In this document: positions 2,350 to 7,763 of the stretch, one piece after another
Layout: every line of letters begins with the position of its first letter
Position numbering within the stretch: the stretch's first letter is position 1
Assembly: GCA_025451535.1 (NCBI GenBank)
Contig: JANWKE010000187.1
Coordinates: 1 to 45,305, forward strand
Direction: 5' to 3'
DNA from: Verrucomicrobiia bacterium
GTDB taxonomy: Bacteria > Verrucomicrobiota > Verrucomicrobiia > Limisphaerales > UBA11358
DNA length: 45,305 nucleotides
Notes under the pieces: model-generated
Told to the model about the DNA's origin: nothing
Databases searched by the model: none
What the model saw: the letters and a program-made list of their open reading frames with translations, nothing else
Made by a program: the position numbers and the translations under genes

Positions 2350-3828
2350 CTACAATGTCCGTTTCACCGCTGCGAGCCATCCGTCATAGAGCCGTTTGGC
2401 CTGGGCGGGGTCCATCCGCGGCCGGTAACTCCGGATTTCGCGCGGCAACGCCGCCAGGTCGTCCAGGGAATGGCAGATTCCCAATCCCAGCAATCCGCTC
2501 ATCGCTGCGCCCCAGGCGGAAGATTCCGGGACTTCCGCGACCTTGAGTTCCAGTTCCGCCAAATCTGCCGTAAATTGCATAAGAAACTGGTCACGTGTCG
2601 GTCCGCCGTCGGCGTAGAGGTTCTGCAGTTTGATTGGCGCATCCGCCCGCATCATTTCCAGCACGTCACGGATTTGATAGGCGATGGCCTCTTCCGCCGC
2701 GCGCGCGATGTGCTCCCGGCGCGTGTGGGCGGTCATGCCGATGATGGCGGCCCGTGCCTCCGGCTTCCAATACGGCGCGCTCAGCCCCGAAAAGGCCGGC
2801 ACGAGATATACTCCGCCGTTGTCCGGCACGGAGGTCGCCAGCTGTTCCGCCTCGGAGGAGCTTTGAATCAGGCCCAGCTGGTCTTTTAACCAGGAAATCG
2901 TCGCCGCCGAAAAATTGATGATGCCTTCGAAGGCGTAAGTTGGTTGCCCGCGCCAGACCCAGGCCAGGGCTGAAACCGCGCCGCGCTCCGAAAGGCGGAA
3001 TTTATCGCCGATGTTCAGCAACACGGACGTGCCCGTGCCAAAGGTTGCCTTGACCATGCCTGGCTGAAAACAACGTTGCGCAAACAAGGAAGCCTGCGAA
3101 TCGCCCATGACGCCGCAAATGGGCACCCGGTGTGGCAGGATGCCATCCAGATCGGTCTCGCCAAATGGCGACGCACTTTCGCGAACTTCCGCCAGCGCAT
3201 TCAACGGCACGTCGAAGAGTTCGCACAGCTGCTCATCCCAGCGCAGTCGGTTGATGTCAAACAACAGTGTCCGGCTGGCATTGGTATGATCGGTGGCGAA
3301 GACTTTTCCACCTGTCAGCCGATGCACCAGCCAGGCGTCAATGGTCCCCACGATGGCCTGGCTGCTCTTGAGTTTTGCGGCGATTTCCGGATTTTCCCGG
3401 ACCAGCCACTTGATTTTTGAGGCCGAGAAATAGGTGTCAATTTTCAGCCCGGTTTTCCCTCGAACCATTTCGTCGAGTCCCTGTTCGCGGAGTTTTTGAC
3501 AAATAGGTTCGCCACGGCGGCACAGCCAGACGATGGCGTTGTGCAGCGGTCTGCCGGTGGCCCGGTCGAACACCAGGATGGTTTCGCGCTGGTTGGTGAT
3601 GCTCACCCCGATGAGTTGCGCCAGCTGGTCACGATTCCGGCCAGCGATCTCACGGGCCACTGTCAAAACGTTCTGCCAGATTTCCTCGGCGTTGTGTTCG
3701 ACCCGGCCGGGCTGCGGATAAATCTGCCTGTGTTCCCGTGACGCCCGATCCAGCACCTTGCCTTGCGAATCGAACAGCACTGCCTTGGTGGCGGAAGTGC
3801 TTTGGTCAAGGGAGAGGATGAGGGGCAT
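2350..3828 (-). CDS. FGGY-family carbohydrate kinase, glycerol-kinase-like
   Basis: This is a 492-residue ATP-dependent sugar or polyol kinase of the FGGY family. It starts MPLILSLDQSTSATKAVLFD, with the first phosphate loop at the very N-terminus. The frame is open further upstream to 3879, but that part would be encoded by the repeat array and the neighbouring gene tail, so ATG 3828 is chosen. It resembles GlpK: SITNQRETILVFD, IVWLCRRGEPICQ, YFSASKIKWL, GDSQASLFAQ, FGTGTS, VPAFSGLSAPYW and YADGGPTRDQFLMQF. The E. coli glycerol-binding Arg83-Glu84, Trp103, Tyr135 and Asp245 positions appear conserved, but Phe270 is Ser here (codon 3027-3025). The gene follows an isomerase and split transketolase, so I infer a ketose kinase (for example apulose) rather than a dedicated glycerol kinase. 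An automated pipeline would probably name it glpK. Confidence 0.83.
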   Translation of the reverse strand: MPLILSLDQSTSATKAVLFDSQGKVLDRASREHRQIYPQPGRVEHNAEEIWQNVLTVAREIAGRNRDQLAQLIGVSITNQRETILVFDRATGRPLHNAIVWLCRRGEPICQKLREQGLDEMVRGKTGLKIDTYFSASKIKWLVRENPEIAAKLKSSQAIVGTIDAWLVHRLTGGKVFATDHTNASRTLLFDINRLRWDEQLCELFDVPLNALAEVRESASPFGETDLDGILPHRVPICGVMGDSQASLFAQRCFQPGMVKATFGTGTSVLLNIGDKFRLSERGAVSALAWVWRGQPTYAFEGIINFSAATISWLKDQLGLIQSSSEAEQLATSVPDNGGVYLVPAFSGLSAPYWKPEARAAIIGMTAHTRREHIARAAEEAIAYQIRDVLEMMRADAPIKLQNLYADGGPTRDQFLMQFTADLAELELKVAEVPESSAWGAAMSGLLGLGICHSLDDLAALPREIRSYRPRMDPAQAKRLYDGWLAAVKRTL

Positions 3829-3857
3829 GTGGCAAATGAGTCGAATGGGTCTAATGG
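3822..3857 (-). repeat. Degenerate 9-base repeat array, downstream flank of four-helix-bundle gene
   Basis: Read on the minus strand there are three clear units, CCATTAGAC, CCATTCGAC and TCATTTGCC, followed in phase by a weak fourth unit, ACATGCCCC. The first unit contains the stop codon (TAG) of the four-helix-bundle gene, and the fourth contains the ATG of the kinase. The consensus YCATNNGMC is shared, in the same orientation, with the array at 4408-4443. Confidence 0.75.
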
Positions 3858-4414
3858 GATTGAAGTTTGCGGGCTTCAAGCCGGGCGCGAGTCATGCGTT
3901 CACGAAGGCCGCCAGCTTTGAGAAAATCCTGTTCCAACCGGCGCTTAAGCTGATCCAGCAGATAGTTGGTTTGGTGGATCAGGCAGATAGCAATGTTGGC
4001 GATAACTTCGGGGGGCCGGGTTTCAATAAACTCGCGGAAGTCTTTATACGTCAGGTTGGCTTTGCAACCAAGTCGGCGGACATATCCGGCTTCCCTGGAG
4101 TTCTTGTCCCAGAGGCGCAGATGTCTTACGCGAAGGTAATCTTCGCAATCCTTGAGCAGTTCTTCCTGGCTGGCACGGGCAGTGTTGATAAGCTTGATTT
4201 CAACCTCCTTGGAGGTGCCCGAGAATTCTGAACCCTCGGAGATATTTTGCTTTCCCGATCGTGCCGCCTGGATCATCTGGTCAATGGTGCGGTCGCCTTT
4301 GGCGAGAAACTTGTGGCAGAAACGGAAAGTGATGTCGTAAACAACCTCGGCCTTCTGGTAAGAGAGCAGTTCGCGGTAGTTGCCGTGGGGTGGGATGAAG
4401 CCTTCCTGGTTCAT
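3851..4414 (-). CDS. Four-helix bundle protein (S23/IVP-like, long form)
   Basis: This is a 187-residue protein starting MNQEGFIPPHGNYRELLSYQ. It has the family hallmarks YDITFRFCHKFL, DQMIQAARSGKQNISEGSEF and INTARASQEELLKDCEDYLR, an amphipathic helical pattern like that of the proteins encoded by 23S rRNA intervening sequences and the Avd proteins of diversity-generating retroelements. The C-terminal part (FREFIETRPPEVIANIAICL) makes it longer than the usual ~120 residues and fits the 'four helix bundle suffix domain' variant. The family is thought to form nucleic-acid-binding oligomers; the biochemical role is unknown. It lies between the transketolase C subunit and the kinase, an unrelated function for a sugar operon, and has 9-base repeat arrays on both sides. 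Upstream in-frame ATGs at 4423 and 4441 lie inside the repeat, so the start is uncertain. Confidence 0.83.
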   Translation of the reverse strand: MNQEGFIPPHGNYRELLSYQKAEVVYDITFRFCHKFLAKGDRTIDQMIQAARSGKQNISEGSEFSGTSKEVEIKLINTARASQEELLKDCEDYLRVRHLRLWDKNSREAGYVRRLGCKANLTYKDFREFIETRPPEVIANIAICLIHQTNYLLDQLKRRLEQDFLKAGGLRERMTRARLEARKLQSH

Positions 4415-4443
4415 AGGTCGCATGGGGCTTATGCGACGCATAG
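4408..4443 (-). repeat. Degenerate 9-base repeat array, upstream flank of four-helix-bundle gene
   Basis: On the minus strand there are four contiguous 9-mers: CTATGCGTC, GCATAAGCC, CCATGCGAC and CTATGAACC. They match the consensus YCATNNGMC of the downstream array; CCATGCGAC and CCATTCGAC differ at one base. The transketolase stop codon (TAA) lies inside the second unit, so the last residues of that protein (LCVA) are repeat-encoded. The start codon of the four-helix-bundle gene lies in the fourth unit. Confidence 0.75.
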
Positions 4444-5433
4444 TAGCGAACCAGCCAAATGGCTCAAGCCTTCCATCGAAATACCGTAGTGCCGAAAAAT
4501 GTCCGCCTGTGCGCCAGTGACGGTGTCCTCGTCGGGAATGCCCACGATGCGGAAGGGCACGGAGACGCCGGCCTGCATCAATGCCGCGGCGCAGCCCTCG
4601 CCAAGCCCGCCGTGAACACTGTGTTCCTCGACCGTGACAATGGCACGGCACTCGCGTCCGGCACGCAGCACTGACTCGGTATCGAGCGGCTTGACCGTGT
4701 GCAGGCTCAGAACGCGGCACTGCAATCCCTGTTCGGCCAGTTTGGCCGCGGCAAGGAGGCAATGCACCACCGTCTCGCCGGTGCTGAGGAACGCGACGTC
4801 CCGGCCGTCCCGCAACGTGATCGCTTTGCCGGGATCAAATTTCGTTTCAGGTTTGTGCAGGCCGTACATCGCGGCCTTGCCGAGCCGGATGAACACCGGC
4901 TGTTCGCTTTGCGCCGCGGCGCGGACGGCCCCGCGGGCCTCAAAATTGTCTGCGGGAACGATGATGGAAATGTTGTGGATTGCCCGCAATGCCGCCAGGT
5001 CGTGCAGCGAATGATGCGTGCTGCCCAGCGCGCCGTAACTCACGCCGGCACTGATGCCGACCAGCACCGCCGGGACGTCTGAATAGCAAACATCGTTCTT
5101 GATCTGCTCCAACGAGCGGGCTGTGAGAAAACACGCCGGTGAAACGCCAAAGGCCTTTTTGCCCGCCGCCGCCAGGCCCGCCGTGATGCCGACGAGATTT
5201 TGTTCGGCAATGCCAATCTCAATCAATTGCCCGGGTAGCGCCTCGCCAAACGGACCCAGTTTGCCCGAACCGCGCGAGTCACTGGTGACGGCAACAATAT
5301 TGCGGTTGGCTTTCGCAAGCTCGAGCAACGTGGCGGCAAATTCGTCGAGGTTGGCGCGGCCCATTTTTAAACCGAGCTTTTCCGCCATTGCCTTTGCCGC
5401 AGGCGAAAACAGGGAAGAGGCCGGTGCGCTCAT
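4429..5433 (-). CDS. Transketolase, C-terminal subunit
   Basis: This 334-residue protein is the pyrimidine-binding plus C-terminal domain half of a split transketolase. Signatures are the Glu-containing LIEIGIAEQNLVGITAGLA (the glutamate activates thiamine diphosphate), then YGALGSTHHSLHDLAALRAI and IIVPADNFEARGAVRAA. A Rossmann-like C-terminal domain follows, with VAFLSTGETVVHCLLAAAKL and VTVEEHSVHGGLG. It must pair with the N-terminal subunit, whose stop overlaps this start by four bases (ATGA), the usual arrangement for stoichiometric subunits. The reaction is transfer of a two-carbon ketol unit between phosphorylated sugars. Split transketolases are used by several special pathways, including apulose-4-phosphate transketolase (AptA/AptB), as well as by some central pentose-phosphate systems. 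The extreme C-terminus runs into the 9-base repeat array, so the native ending may have been replaced. Confidence 0.9.
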   Translation of the reverse strand: MSAPASSLFSPAAKAMAEKLGLKMGRANLDEFAATLLELAKANRNIVAVTSDSRGSGKLGPFGEALPGQLIEIGIAEQNLVGITAGLAAAGKKAFGVSPACFLTARSLEQIKNDVCYSDVPAVLVGISAGVSYGALGSTHHSLHDLAALRAIHNISIIVPADNFEARGAVRAAAQSEQPVFIRLGKAAMYGLHKPETKFDPGKAITLRDGRDVAFLSTGETVVHCLLAAAKLAEQGLQCRVLSLHTVKPLDTESVLRAGRECRAIVTVEEHSVHGGLGEGCAAALMQAGVSVPFRIVGIPDEDTVTGAQADIFRHYGISMEGLSHLAGSLLCVA

Positions 5434-6273: not shown

Positions 6274-7695
6274 TCAGATTTCGTGCGTGTGCTCATACAC
6301 TTCCCAACCGAAATAATTTCCCAAGGCCTCGGCCAGGATGTCGGCGGACTTCGATTGGGTCATCACGACGTGGTGCTCGAAGCCTTGCTTGCAGACATAG
6401 CGCATCAGCTTCTGCAGTTTCGGCACGTGGGCGACGGCGCGGGTGCCAAACGTGTTGAGCGGATCGTTGGTGAGTTCGCCTTCGCCGACATAGGCGCGGA
6501 TTTTTCCTTCGGTATCCGCCGTGGTGATCCGGCCGAAGGTGAGCGGGCCGGCCGGCGTGCGACCGGCGAGGGCGCCGTACGTGTTTTTTTCGCCGACAAT
6601 GGTGCCGAGGATCGGCGCGGTGGCAATTTTGATGTCCGGCAGGAACGTTTTTGCCCAGTTGCCGCAATGGAAAAGAACGCATTTGTCGTCATCGTCCGCA
6701 TAATTGTTGTTCCAATCCACGAGCGCGGCCGGCGTATTGCCGGCCAACTGCATCGCATACATCGTGAGCGCGCCGGTCACGTCCACTTCGCAGGCGCTGG
6801 GCATGAAACGTTCGCTCATCATGCTCATCAGGGTGCAGGTGTTGCAGCCATAATTTTGCTGCACGGAGGTCCAACACTGAATCGCCGTCGCGTCGAGAGC
6901 ATGGGCGGTCATCCAGTCGTTCAGCACGACACCCATCCTGGCCATTTGCACGAGTGGTTTTTCGGGAACGCCCTGGCTCGGTGCGTAGGATTTGATTTCC
7001 TTGAGCCTGGCGACGACGGATTTTTCGCTGGCGTCCAATTCTTCCGCTTGGCCCAGGATTTCCGACAAGTCCACGGTGGTGACGCTGATGCCGTGGCGTT
7101 CGAGAAGTTTTTCGGAATAACGAACGGTGTTGAACGCGCCGGGCCGCGCGCCCACCGCGCCCAACCGCAATCCACGCAAGCCGTTCACCACCCGACAAAC
7201 CGCTAGGAACTTGTCCAGATCTGCGATGAACGAATCGTCGGCCGGCCGCACGACATGTTTGTTCGTGACGGAGAATTTGATTCCCGCCTGAACGAGATTG
7301 TTGCAAACGGATATTTTACCGCAGTAAGCATCGCGCCGGCGCGCAACGTCGAGCTTTTTCAAATCGTCGGGATATCCCTGAATCAAAACCGGCACGTTCA
7401 AACCGGACATTTTGAGGGTTTCGGCCACCCCCTTTTCATCCCCGAAATTCGGCAGTACCACGAGCACGCCGTCAATCTCGTCGCGATGACGTTTGAATAA
7501 ACTGGCGCATTTACGGGCGTCGGCGTGGGTCTCGATACCGCCGAGTTTGGTTTCATCCGGTGAAACCCAGATGGGCTTGATGCCGCGTTTTTGAAACAGG
7601 CCGGCGATGTCTTTACGCGCTTCCGTGATGAGCTGGTCGGGAAAGAAATCGCGGTTGCCGATGATAACGCCAAGAGTGGGAGTGGATGTTTTCAT
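6274..7695 (-). CDS. Sugar isomerase of the L-fucose isomerase-related class (COG2407-like)
   Basis: This is a cytoplasmic protein of 473 residues with no signal peptide. The N-terminal alpha/beta domains (STPTLGVIIGNRDFFPDQL, then GVLVVLPNFGDEKGVAE) and the C-terminal part (QCWTSVQQNYGCNTCTLMS, SACEVDVTGALTMYAMQLA, AALVDWNNNYADDDDKCVLF) match the L-fucose/L-arabinose isomerase fold. The Glu in CEVDV and the Asp in VDWNN are the expected metal ligands of the ene-diol mechanism. It is shorter than E. coli FucI (about 590 residues) and closer to the broad 'L-fucose isomerase and related' group, whose substrates vary. The start MKTSTPTLG is preferred over ATG 7713. It is first in the operon, ahead of the transketolase, kinase and GH95 genes. 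L-fucose is possible, but there is no fuculose-phosphate aldolase here and transketolase would not cleave fuculose-1-phosphate, so D-apiose is an equally good or better guess. Confidence 0.83.
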   Translation of the reverse strand: MKTSTPTLGVIIGNRDFFPDQLITEARKDIAGLFQKRGIKPIWVSPDETKLGGIETHADARKCASLFKRHRDEIDGVLVVLPNFGDEKGVAETLKMSGLNVPVLIQGYPDDLKKLDVARRRDAYCGKISVCNNLVQAGIKFSVTNKHVVRPADDSFIADLDKFLAVCRVVNGLRGLRLGAVGARPGAFNTVRYSEKLLERHGISVTTVDLSEILGQAEELDASEKSVVARLKEIKSYAPSQGVPEKPLVQMARMGVVLNDWMTAHALDATAIQCWTSVQQNYGCNTCTLMSMMSERFMPSACEVDVTGALTMYAMQLAGNTPAALVDWNNNYADDDDKCVLFHCGNWAKTFLPDIKIATAPILGTIVGEKNTYGALAGRTPAGPLTFGRITTADTEGKIRAYVGEGELTNDPLNTFGTRAVAHVPKLQKLMRYVCKQGFEHHVVMTQSKSADILAEALGNYFGWEVYEHTHEI

Positions 7696-7763
7696 AAAGC
7701 GGTCTGCTATCATGTTGCGGCAGAACCTATCAAGGCCGCAACCCGACCTACAGGATGAAACAC

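Follow-up and report, generated by a model that had tools for sequence, protein, structure and literature searches.

The DNA analysed here, which we call the window, is a stretch of 45,305 nucleotides from a Verrucomicrobiia bacterium (contig JANWKE010000187.1), and its subject is a small gene for a four-helix-bundle protein that stands inside a sugar operon and is framed on both sides by tandem arrays of a 9-nt unit. Genomes, loci and contigs are referred to below by numbers preceded by G, L and C, respectively; the window is contig C187 and its locus L050. The genes of the operon lie on the minus strand in the order isomerase with an L-fucose isomerase C-terminal domain, transketolase N-terminal half, transketolase C-terminal half, four-helix-bundle gene (the cassette gene) and FGGY kinase, and the features that concern us are the following.

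4429..5433, minus strand: transketolase C-terminal half, 334 aa, the upstream operon gene (PF02779/PF02780; same length, 334 aa, in the G022 orthologue)
4407..4442, minus strand: upstream array, four 9-nt units TATGCGTCG CATAAGCCC CATGCGACC TATGAACCA (sequence reading, shuffles, genome pattern scan)
3851..4414, minus strand: cassette gene, S23/Avd-type four-helix bundle plus C-terminal "suffix" domain, 187 aa, ATG start (TIGR04258, TIGR02436, predicted structure)
3821..3856, minus strand: downstream array, 9-nt units CATTAGACC CATTCGACT CATTTGCCA CATGCCCCT (sequence reading, shuffles, genome pattern scan)
2350..3828, minus strand: FGGY-family kinase (glycerol kinase-like), the downstream operon gene (PF00370/PF02782, NF000756; N-terminus similar in relatives)

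As a first-pass annotation of this DNA had pointed out, the stop and start codons of the neighbouring genes fall within the arrays: in the upstream one the transketolase ends (TAA, 4429-4431) and the cassette gene begins (ATG, 4412-4414), and in the downstream one the cassette gene ends (3851-3853) and the kinase begins (ATG, 3826-3828). We take this last ATG as the kinase start, given that a longer, TTG-started open reading frame (ORF) call would reach into the cassette and that the kinases of relatives begin with MSLVLAIDQS, MSLILAIDQS or MPAILAIDQS, compared with MPLILSLDQS in the window. The window transketolase ends at a TAA within an array unit with its length unchanged relative to G022, and the kinase N-terminus is retained. 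The isomerase (6274-7713, minus strand) also matches sulfoquinovose isomerase, though weakly (86.8 bits against a cut-off of 700).

The arrays and the protein of the window locus

Each end holds four units, some of them imperfect, of the form YATNNGNCC on the minus strand. The best motif score over three or four units was matched by none of 2000 dinucleotide shuffles of each 120-nt flank, a test that is partly circular because the motif was derived from these arrays themselves. The motif-free lag-9 score was reached in none of 2000 shuffles downstream and in 5.8% of them upstream, so that the upstream array is the weaker one when no motif is assumed. When the 4,399,804-base genome was scanned with the pattern YATNNGNCYYATNNGNCYYATNNG (24 bases, at most one mismatch), four of the five matches lay at the window locus, and the same pattern read backwards gave one match genome-wide. 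The 9-base arrays proposed for both ends of the gene are thus real, and the finding, described below, that this unit recurs at unrelated loci in different phyla is free of the circularity of the motif test. The further proposal that both arrays have the same orientation holds weakly, with a similarity between the two arrays of 0.60 read directly and 0.53 read inverted; the two readings differ little because the unit is nearly a palindrome, with sense and antisense scores of 21 and 20 for the upstream array over four units. A single orientation rule for 9-nt arrays was rejected, the inverted reading beating the direct one in 9 of 19 elements.

The cassette protein belongs to the suffix-domain family TIGR04258 (80.7 bits, cut-off 40) and barely to the four-helix-bundle family TIGR02436 (24.3 bits, cut-off 24), and it is related to PF05635 (23S_rRNA_IVP) with a score of 23.9 bits (E 5e-5) that lies below the Pfam gathering score of 33.8. 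An AlphaFold2 model built from an alignment of 14 sequences (mean pLDDT 87) superposes, as a prediction, on the S23/XCC0516 fold (2GSC/2RLD): of the chains re-aligned with VIA-align, 2gsc came out on top (Z 15.6, rmsd 1.8 over 113 residues) and 2rld next (Z 13.9), followed among relatives by Avd (8ub7, whose chain B we take to be Avd, Z 11.5; 4dwl, Z 11.3). As unrelated helical proteins score Z 10-12, the structural match to S23 is distinctive and the match to Avd alone is not. A sequence search of the PDB with the single protein gave no match and a profile search one meaningless match at E=0.55, while Foldseek alone returned nothing under E 0.001 and placed 2rld at rank 21; Pfam and TIGR/NF profile searches found no enzyme domain in the cassette protein. 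These results agree with the earlier assignment of the gene to the family of rRNA intervening-sequence proteins and Avd, without a link to sugar metabolism. The protein is 54-72% identical to 13 suffix-bearing relatives. Two copies from Planctomycetes (L249 and L250) share 71% and 74% identity with it, but the same-genus copy L043 shares 64%.

Repeat length and protein type across loci

The window genome has 16 TIGR02436 matches, some of which are halves of one broken gene, and the other copies appear, from a reading of their flanks, to sit between short arrays of their own whose unit differs per copy. Periodicity was measured with a motif-free lag score (28 comparisons per flank at lags 5 to 12, both flanks summed) in which gene starts were approximated, so that some flanks may be misplaced. 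The suffix set comprised 70 loci, 30 from the top of the match list and 40 from further down chosen by hand, mostly by score, and included the window; L069 was left out for short flanks, leaving 69. The non-suffix set of 102 loci consisted of 13 of the 16 own-genome matches (all except the window's own and two second gene halves, L014 and L015), 29 further loci and 60 lower on the list. A suffix profile matched all 70 suffix proteins and none of the 102 non-suffix ones.

The 9-nt periodicity expected in the flanks of related four-helix-bundle genes was recovered as the best lag in 52 of the 69 suffix loci (31 of 32 at a score of 34 or more) and in one of the 102 non-suffix loci, where the best lag was 7 in 80, 8 in 17, 6 in two and 12 in two; the 13 own-genome genes of the latter set contributed 10, 2 and 1 loci at lags 7, 8 and 6, respectively. 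Regions distal to the genes had lag 9 in 9/68 (suffix) and lag 7 in 8/95 (non-suffix), and shuffled flanks in 52/345 and 70/510, respectively. Because distal controls, like coding DNA, prefer lags 6, 9 and 12 (lag 9 in 25/95 non-suffix controls), weaker lag-9 calls are not specific and only the stronger scores are; at 34 or more, no suffix distal control had lag 9. A later cross-phylum set was drawn from named genomes as the best 80 of at least 575 suffix relatives, with record titles naming Verrucomicrobia, Planctomycetes, Lentisphaerae, Acidobacteria, Bacteroidetes, Chlorobi, Chloroflexi, Nitrospiraceae and several Proteobacteria, and was reduced to 78 by the short flanks of L280 and L292. 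In this set of best matches lag 9 was found in 64/78, against 16/71 distal controls and 34/390 shuffles; at a score of 36 or more it was found in 32/32 (distal controls 2/71), and after removal of four loci that repeat the discovery set in 60/74. Among 118 strong 9-nt arrays, 80 fit one unit, approximately [C/T]AT-A/N-N-G-[T/A]-C-C, and 38 do not.

Within the 7-nt class the array sequence, too, belongs to its protein. In 69 lag-7 elements the upstream array matched its own downstream array better when the latter was reverse-complemented (0.674) than when it was read directly (0.407); the value for arrays of other elements was 0.456, and the inverted arrangement won in 64 of the 69. Similarity between units rises with protein identity (r=0.269, reached in 0/2000 permutations of the loci, a procedure that includes no phylogenetic model; opposite strand, 0.114) and still does so after removal of 26 pairs with similar flanks (r=0.246, 0/5000); mean unit similarity was 0.633 for the 31 pairs at 60-80% protein identity and about 0.44 below 50%. 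Repeat length is therefore tied to protein type and, in the 7-nt class, repeat sequence to protein similarity.

Repeat length as a clean clade marker among the non-suffix S23 genes was rejected by a tree in which 8-nt units (15 of 99 rows) required at least 12 changes, compared with 14.2 for shuffled labels (19 of 500 shuffles were as low). Units of 7 and 8 nt, scattered in this way, switch often, and the only strong link is that between 9-nt units and the suffix. Array length had medians of 30-31 nt in the 7-, 8- and 9-nt classes under three settings, with a detection floor of 19-25 nt; such a constant length, about 31 nt, would be in keeping with a fixed footprint, which these medians make suggestive only. 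The number of units per array varies from about 3 to 22.

Several other observations concern the distribution of the arrays. L148, a non-suffix locus with 9-nt arrays, encodes a protein with another C-terminal extension, which ends in DPSDPSHLSHS, and so represents a second route to a 9-nt unit; 6-nt arrays accompany two genes, L010 and L159, the former a very long branch in the tree. In 22 of 143 suffix loci (e.g. L072, L075, L084 and L092; rough frame limits) a 9-nt array also lies inside the reading frame, where it encodes tripeptide repeats such as DPS or DQT, often ahead of a C-terminal CPxCG motif that we read as zinc-ribbon-like. Plasmid copies of the S23 type were examined in 12 of 31 matching records, without a control; 11 are cyanobacterial and one is from Riemerella, and the best lag is 7 in 11 copies and 8 in one. 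A single suffix copy, with lag 9 and a weak upstream array, was found on a plasmid, in Prevotella nigrescens. No relative of the suffix type was present among 35 pattern matches in viral_contigs.

Filled and empty sites

Forty genomes, including that of the window, were searched for the transketolase, and eight had a match at E 1e-60 or better. Six same-genus orthologues, 77-90% identical, were identified, and the cassette follows none of them. In G022, G014, G007 and G012 the transketolase runs straight into the kinase, with stop and start overlapping as ATGA in G022 and G014; the transketolase stop and the kinase DQS codon are 17 nt apart in these two, 22 nt in G007 and 51 nt in G012, against 621 nt in the window. 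The arrays are absent as well from all six orthologous junctions, where the best 3-unit score was 12-13 (window, 17) and the lag-9 score 10-14 (window, 20). Since the orthologous junctions have neither cassette nor arrays, the cassette is an insertion and its arrays arrived with it. The junction comparison suggested by the first-pass annotation thus upholds its view of an inserted cassette that leaves the operon genes open, and contradicts its idea that the host reading frames were already adapted to, or built from, the repeat. The insertion site in the window was probably an ATGA stop/start overlap, and a direct-repeat scan detected no duplication of the transketolase tail there. At the same junction G008 (L021) has a different, separate gene and G021 (L020) a fused one, the transketolase frame being extended to 477 aa before the kinase; the two junction sequences are 56% identical to each other, and this junction may take up inserts often.

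Comparable evidence came from the 7-nt class. The element L006 is missing as a single block of about 450 bp, with contiguous flanks, in G003, G004, G021, G023 and G370, and homologues with the same TTTACGA-type arrays occur elsewhere: G019, G360, G007 and G008 have them at a second locus, G024 and G017 at a third. A 9-nt element, L090, likewise has empty sites in G101, G083 and G066, with 29 nt between the flanks instead of 741, and two Nostoc plasmids whose flanks are 91-99.7% identical carry reciprocal filled and empty sites. At one Nostoc site the insert splits what is a TAATG stop/start overlap in the empty version, leaving an ATG on both sides and both genes intact. Gene and arrays therefore form one mobile unit, and such units have inserted together with their arrays and spread widely by horizontal transfer. 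Loss through the repeats, which had also been proposed, was not seen: G022 (L233) and G024 (L232) hold decayed same-site copies of L006 that have lost the gene interior and kept both arrays. These two copies resemble non-autonomous miniature elements.

A non-periodic direct repeat of at least 40 nt flanks the element in 8/142 suffix and 1/99 non-suffix loci and in none of the control draws, which were unmatched and whose stated total of 150 takes no account of the short-flank draws that were skipped. Five of the eight repeats read as the 3' tail of a neighbouring gene, HsdM-like in L262, L274 and L306, HsdS-like in L077 and ThiC-like in L265. The HsdM-like tail on both sides of some cassettes is possibly a long target duplication, and L274 may be two elements in tandem; tail duplications would also spare the operon. 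Type I restriction genes that we read as hsdM and hsdS enclose a suffix cassette at several loci (L026, L028, L039, L262, L274 and L306), and cyanobacterial plasmid copies with 7- or 8-nt arrays (L335, L338 and L340) lie inside cas operons (cas6/cas4, cas10/cmr3).

A candidate mobile element, its rivals and its relatives

We consider it reasonably probable that the window contains a small mobile cassette, made up of one gene and two tandem arrays of about 31 nt each that travel with it, inserted between two operon genes. The cassette would have entered the junction so that the transketolase now takes its stop codon from the arrays and the kinase start lies within them. The S23/Avd-type protein, presumably a pentamer by homology, would recognise its own array at both ends as DNA or RNA, much as a transposon or retroelement factor reads its ends; that the protein binds its own arrays is our inference. 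Because no enzyme domain was found in the protein, cutting and joining must come from elsewhere, and the insertion chemistry could be supplied in trans by enzymes of the host or of other elements. The genome (97.9% complete) has one RVT_1 match, on contig C101, and seven Y1_Tnp matches, of which five exceed the cut-off and three are strong, none on the window contig.

More tentatively, and with less confidence than in the cassette itself, we postulate a family of mobile elements across many phyla in which a ring-forming, non-catalytic protein would read the end arrays, the protein type would set the unit length (7-8 or 9 nt), the unit sequence would evolve with the protein, and insertion would use borrowed chemistry that can duplicate a stop/start overlap or the 3' tail of a gene, so that operons survive. 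The class as a whole has a fair chance of being a new kind of element.

Several points weigh against this interpretation. Transposition is not directly observed, no movable catalytic gene is attached to the cassette, and the exact insertion point in the window cannot be fixed, the transketolase tail having diverged. The element lies between two co-directional genes in 55/143 suffix and 21/39 long-flank non-suffix loci (rough ORF calls), so that operon junctions are a good share and not the rule. Codon periodicity also favours lag 9 (the best lag in 9/68, 25/95 and 16/71 distal controls), a lag other than 9 was the best one in 17/69 suffix loci and in 14/78 of the later set, and L148 has lag 9 without the suffix. 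As judged from the tree, 7- and 8-nt units form no separate protein clades, so that the core domain alone does not fix unit length. Our literature search found no report of such a protein binding its array.

Alternatively, the arrays might be operators with which a resident gene controls translation, its own or the operon's, and mobility would then be old or incidental. The upstream array does cover the cassette's own start codon and the downstream one that of the next gene, and the degree of conservation among the 13 relatives implies a protein under selection. The neighbours, however, vary by copy in both classes (sugar operon, HsdM/HsdS, ribonucleotide reductase and cas genes), and an operator role leaves unexplained why an array lies beyond the stop codon and why the genes are spread across phyla. 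We regard this explanation as rather unlikely when taken in place of mobility, although self-regulation could be true in addition to it.

It is still less probable that the cassette is an RNA element of the kind of an rRNA intervening sequence (IVS), with arrays that pair across the gene and RNase III cutting it from the transcript. Such stems can be formed by the 7-nt elements (mean -42.8 kcal/mol for cognate and -19.0 for non-cognate arrays, 47/68 below the 5th percentile) and by the 8-nt elements (-42.9 against -17.8 kcal/mol, 8/14 below the 5th percentile), and in Coxiella burnetii an IVS with heptamers and a terminal 28-bp stem is excised by RNase III, as stated in passages of PMC4990558. 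The window arrays, in contrast, barely pair: the upstream one folds on itself, and a gene-spanning stem was rejected for a duplex of only -9.1 kcal/mol. Cross-gene pairing passes in 3 of 19 elements of the 9-nt class and fails in the other 16, and therefore pairing is not a common principle. It is very improbable that the arrays have nothing to do with the protein and were already present at the host site or arose there by slippage. The variable copy number is what slippage would give, but the empty sites examined have no arrays, one and the same unit is found with related proteins at different sites, the common 9-nt unit recurs across phyla, and the signal is missing from shuffles and far rarer in distal regions.

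Genomes carry the annotation "Four helix bundle protein" (S23/IVS/Avd-like) for genes whose function is not known. Were these genes the protein half of mobile elements with a matching array, their scatter over genomes would be explained and the heptamers of rRNA intervening sequences would fit in, while the link between protein similarity and repeat unit would be a natural data set for decoding how one fold reads different repeats. A literature search found no report tying these genes to tandem arrays except for the Coxiella heptamers, a weak negative given that subscription papers and bioRxiv were thinly covered; neither the 9-nt arrays nor the suffix domain was the subject of any paper found, and none treated arrays as a general feature.

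Among known systems, REP sequences, which occur with RAYT/TnpA-REP transposases, are likewise short, partly palindromic repeats linked to one protein family. They differ in that the cassette protein is not a Y1 transposase, the Y1_Tnp matches lying on other contigs. The STRR of cyanobacteria are tandem heptamer repeats, and the cyanobacterial S23-type genes found here are flanked by 7-nt arrays. With the Avd protein of diversity-generating retroelements (4DWL; 8UB7 chain B) the cassette protein shares its predicted fold (Z 11.3 and 11.5), but no reverse transcriptase stands beside the cassette. PF05635 is described as related to Avd in part of PMC10053308, and text in PMC11270868 places the family in rRNA insertions of the CPR. 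Eighteen such genes inside cas loci, for instance between cmr3 and cmr2, are mentioned in a section of PMC3936711, and in the present analysis one S23-type gene with 8-nt arrays was found between cas10/cmr2 and cmr3.

The closest likeness is to the 23S rRNA IVS of Coxiella burnetii. In the portions of PMC4990558 concerned, which also quote XCC0516 as a homopentamer, tandem heptamers precede the S23p ORF of a small one-ORF element that is called selfish, the same fold family and the same position of heptamers as in our 7-nt class. That IVS sits in rRNA and is excised by RNase III via a terminal stem, whereas the window element, with its 9-nt units and suffix domain, lies between transketolase and FGGY kinase genes and forms no gene-spanning stem. 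It is thus no rRNA IVS, and within this protein family it behaves as a small selfish element would.

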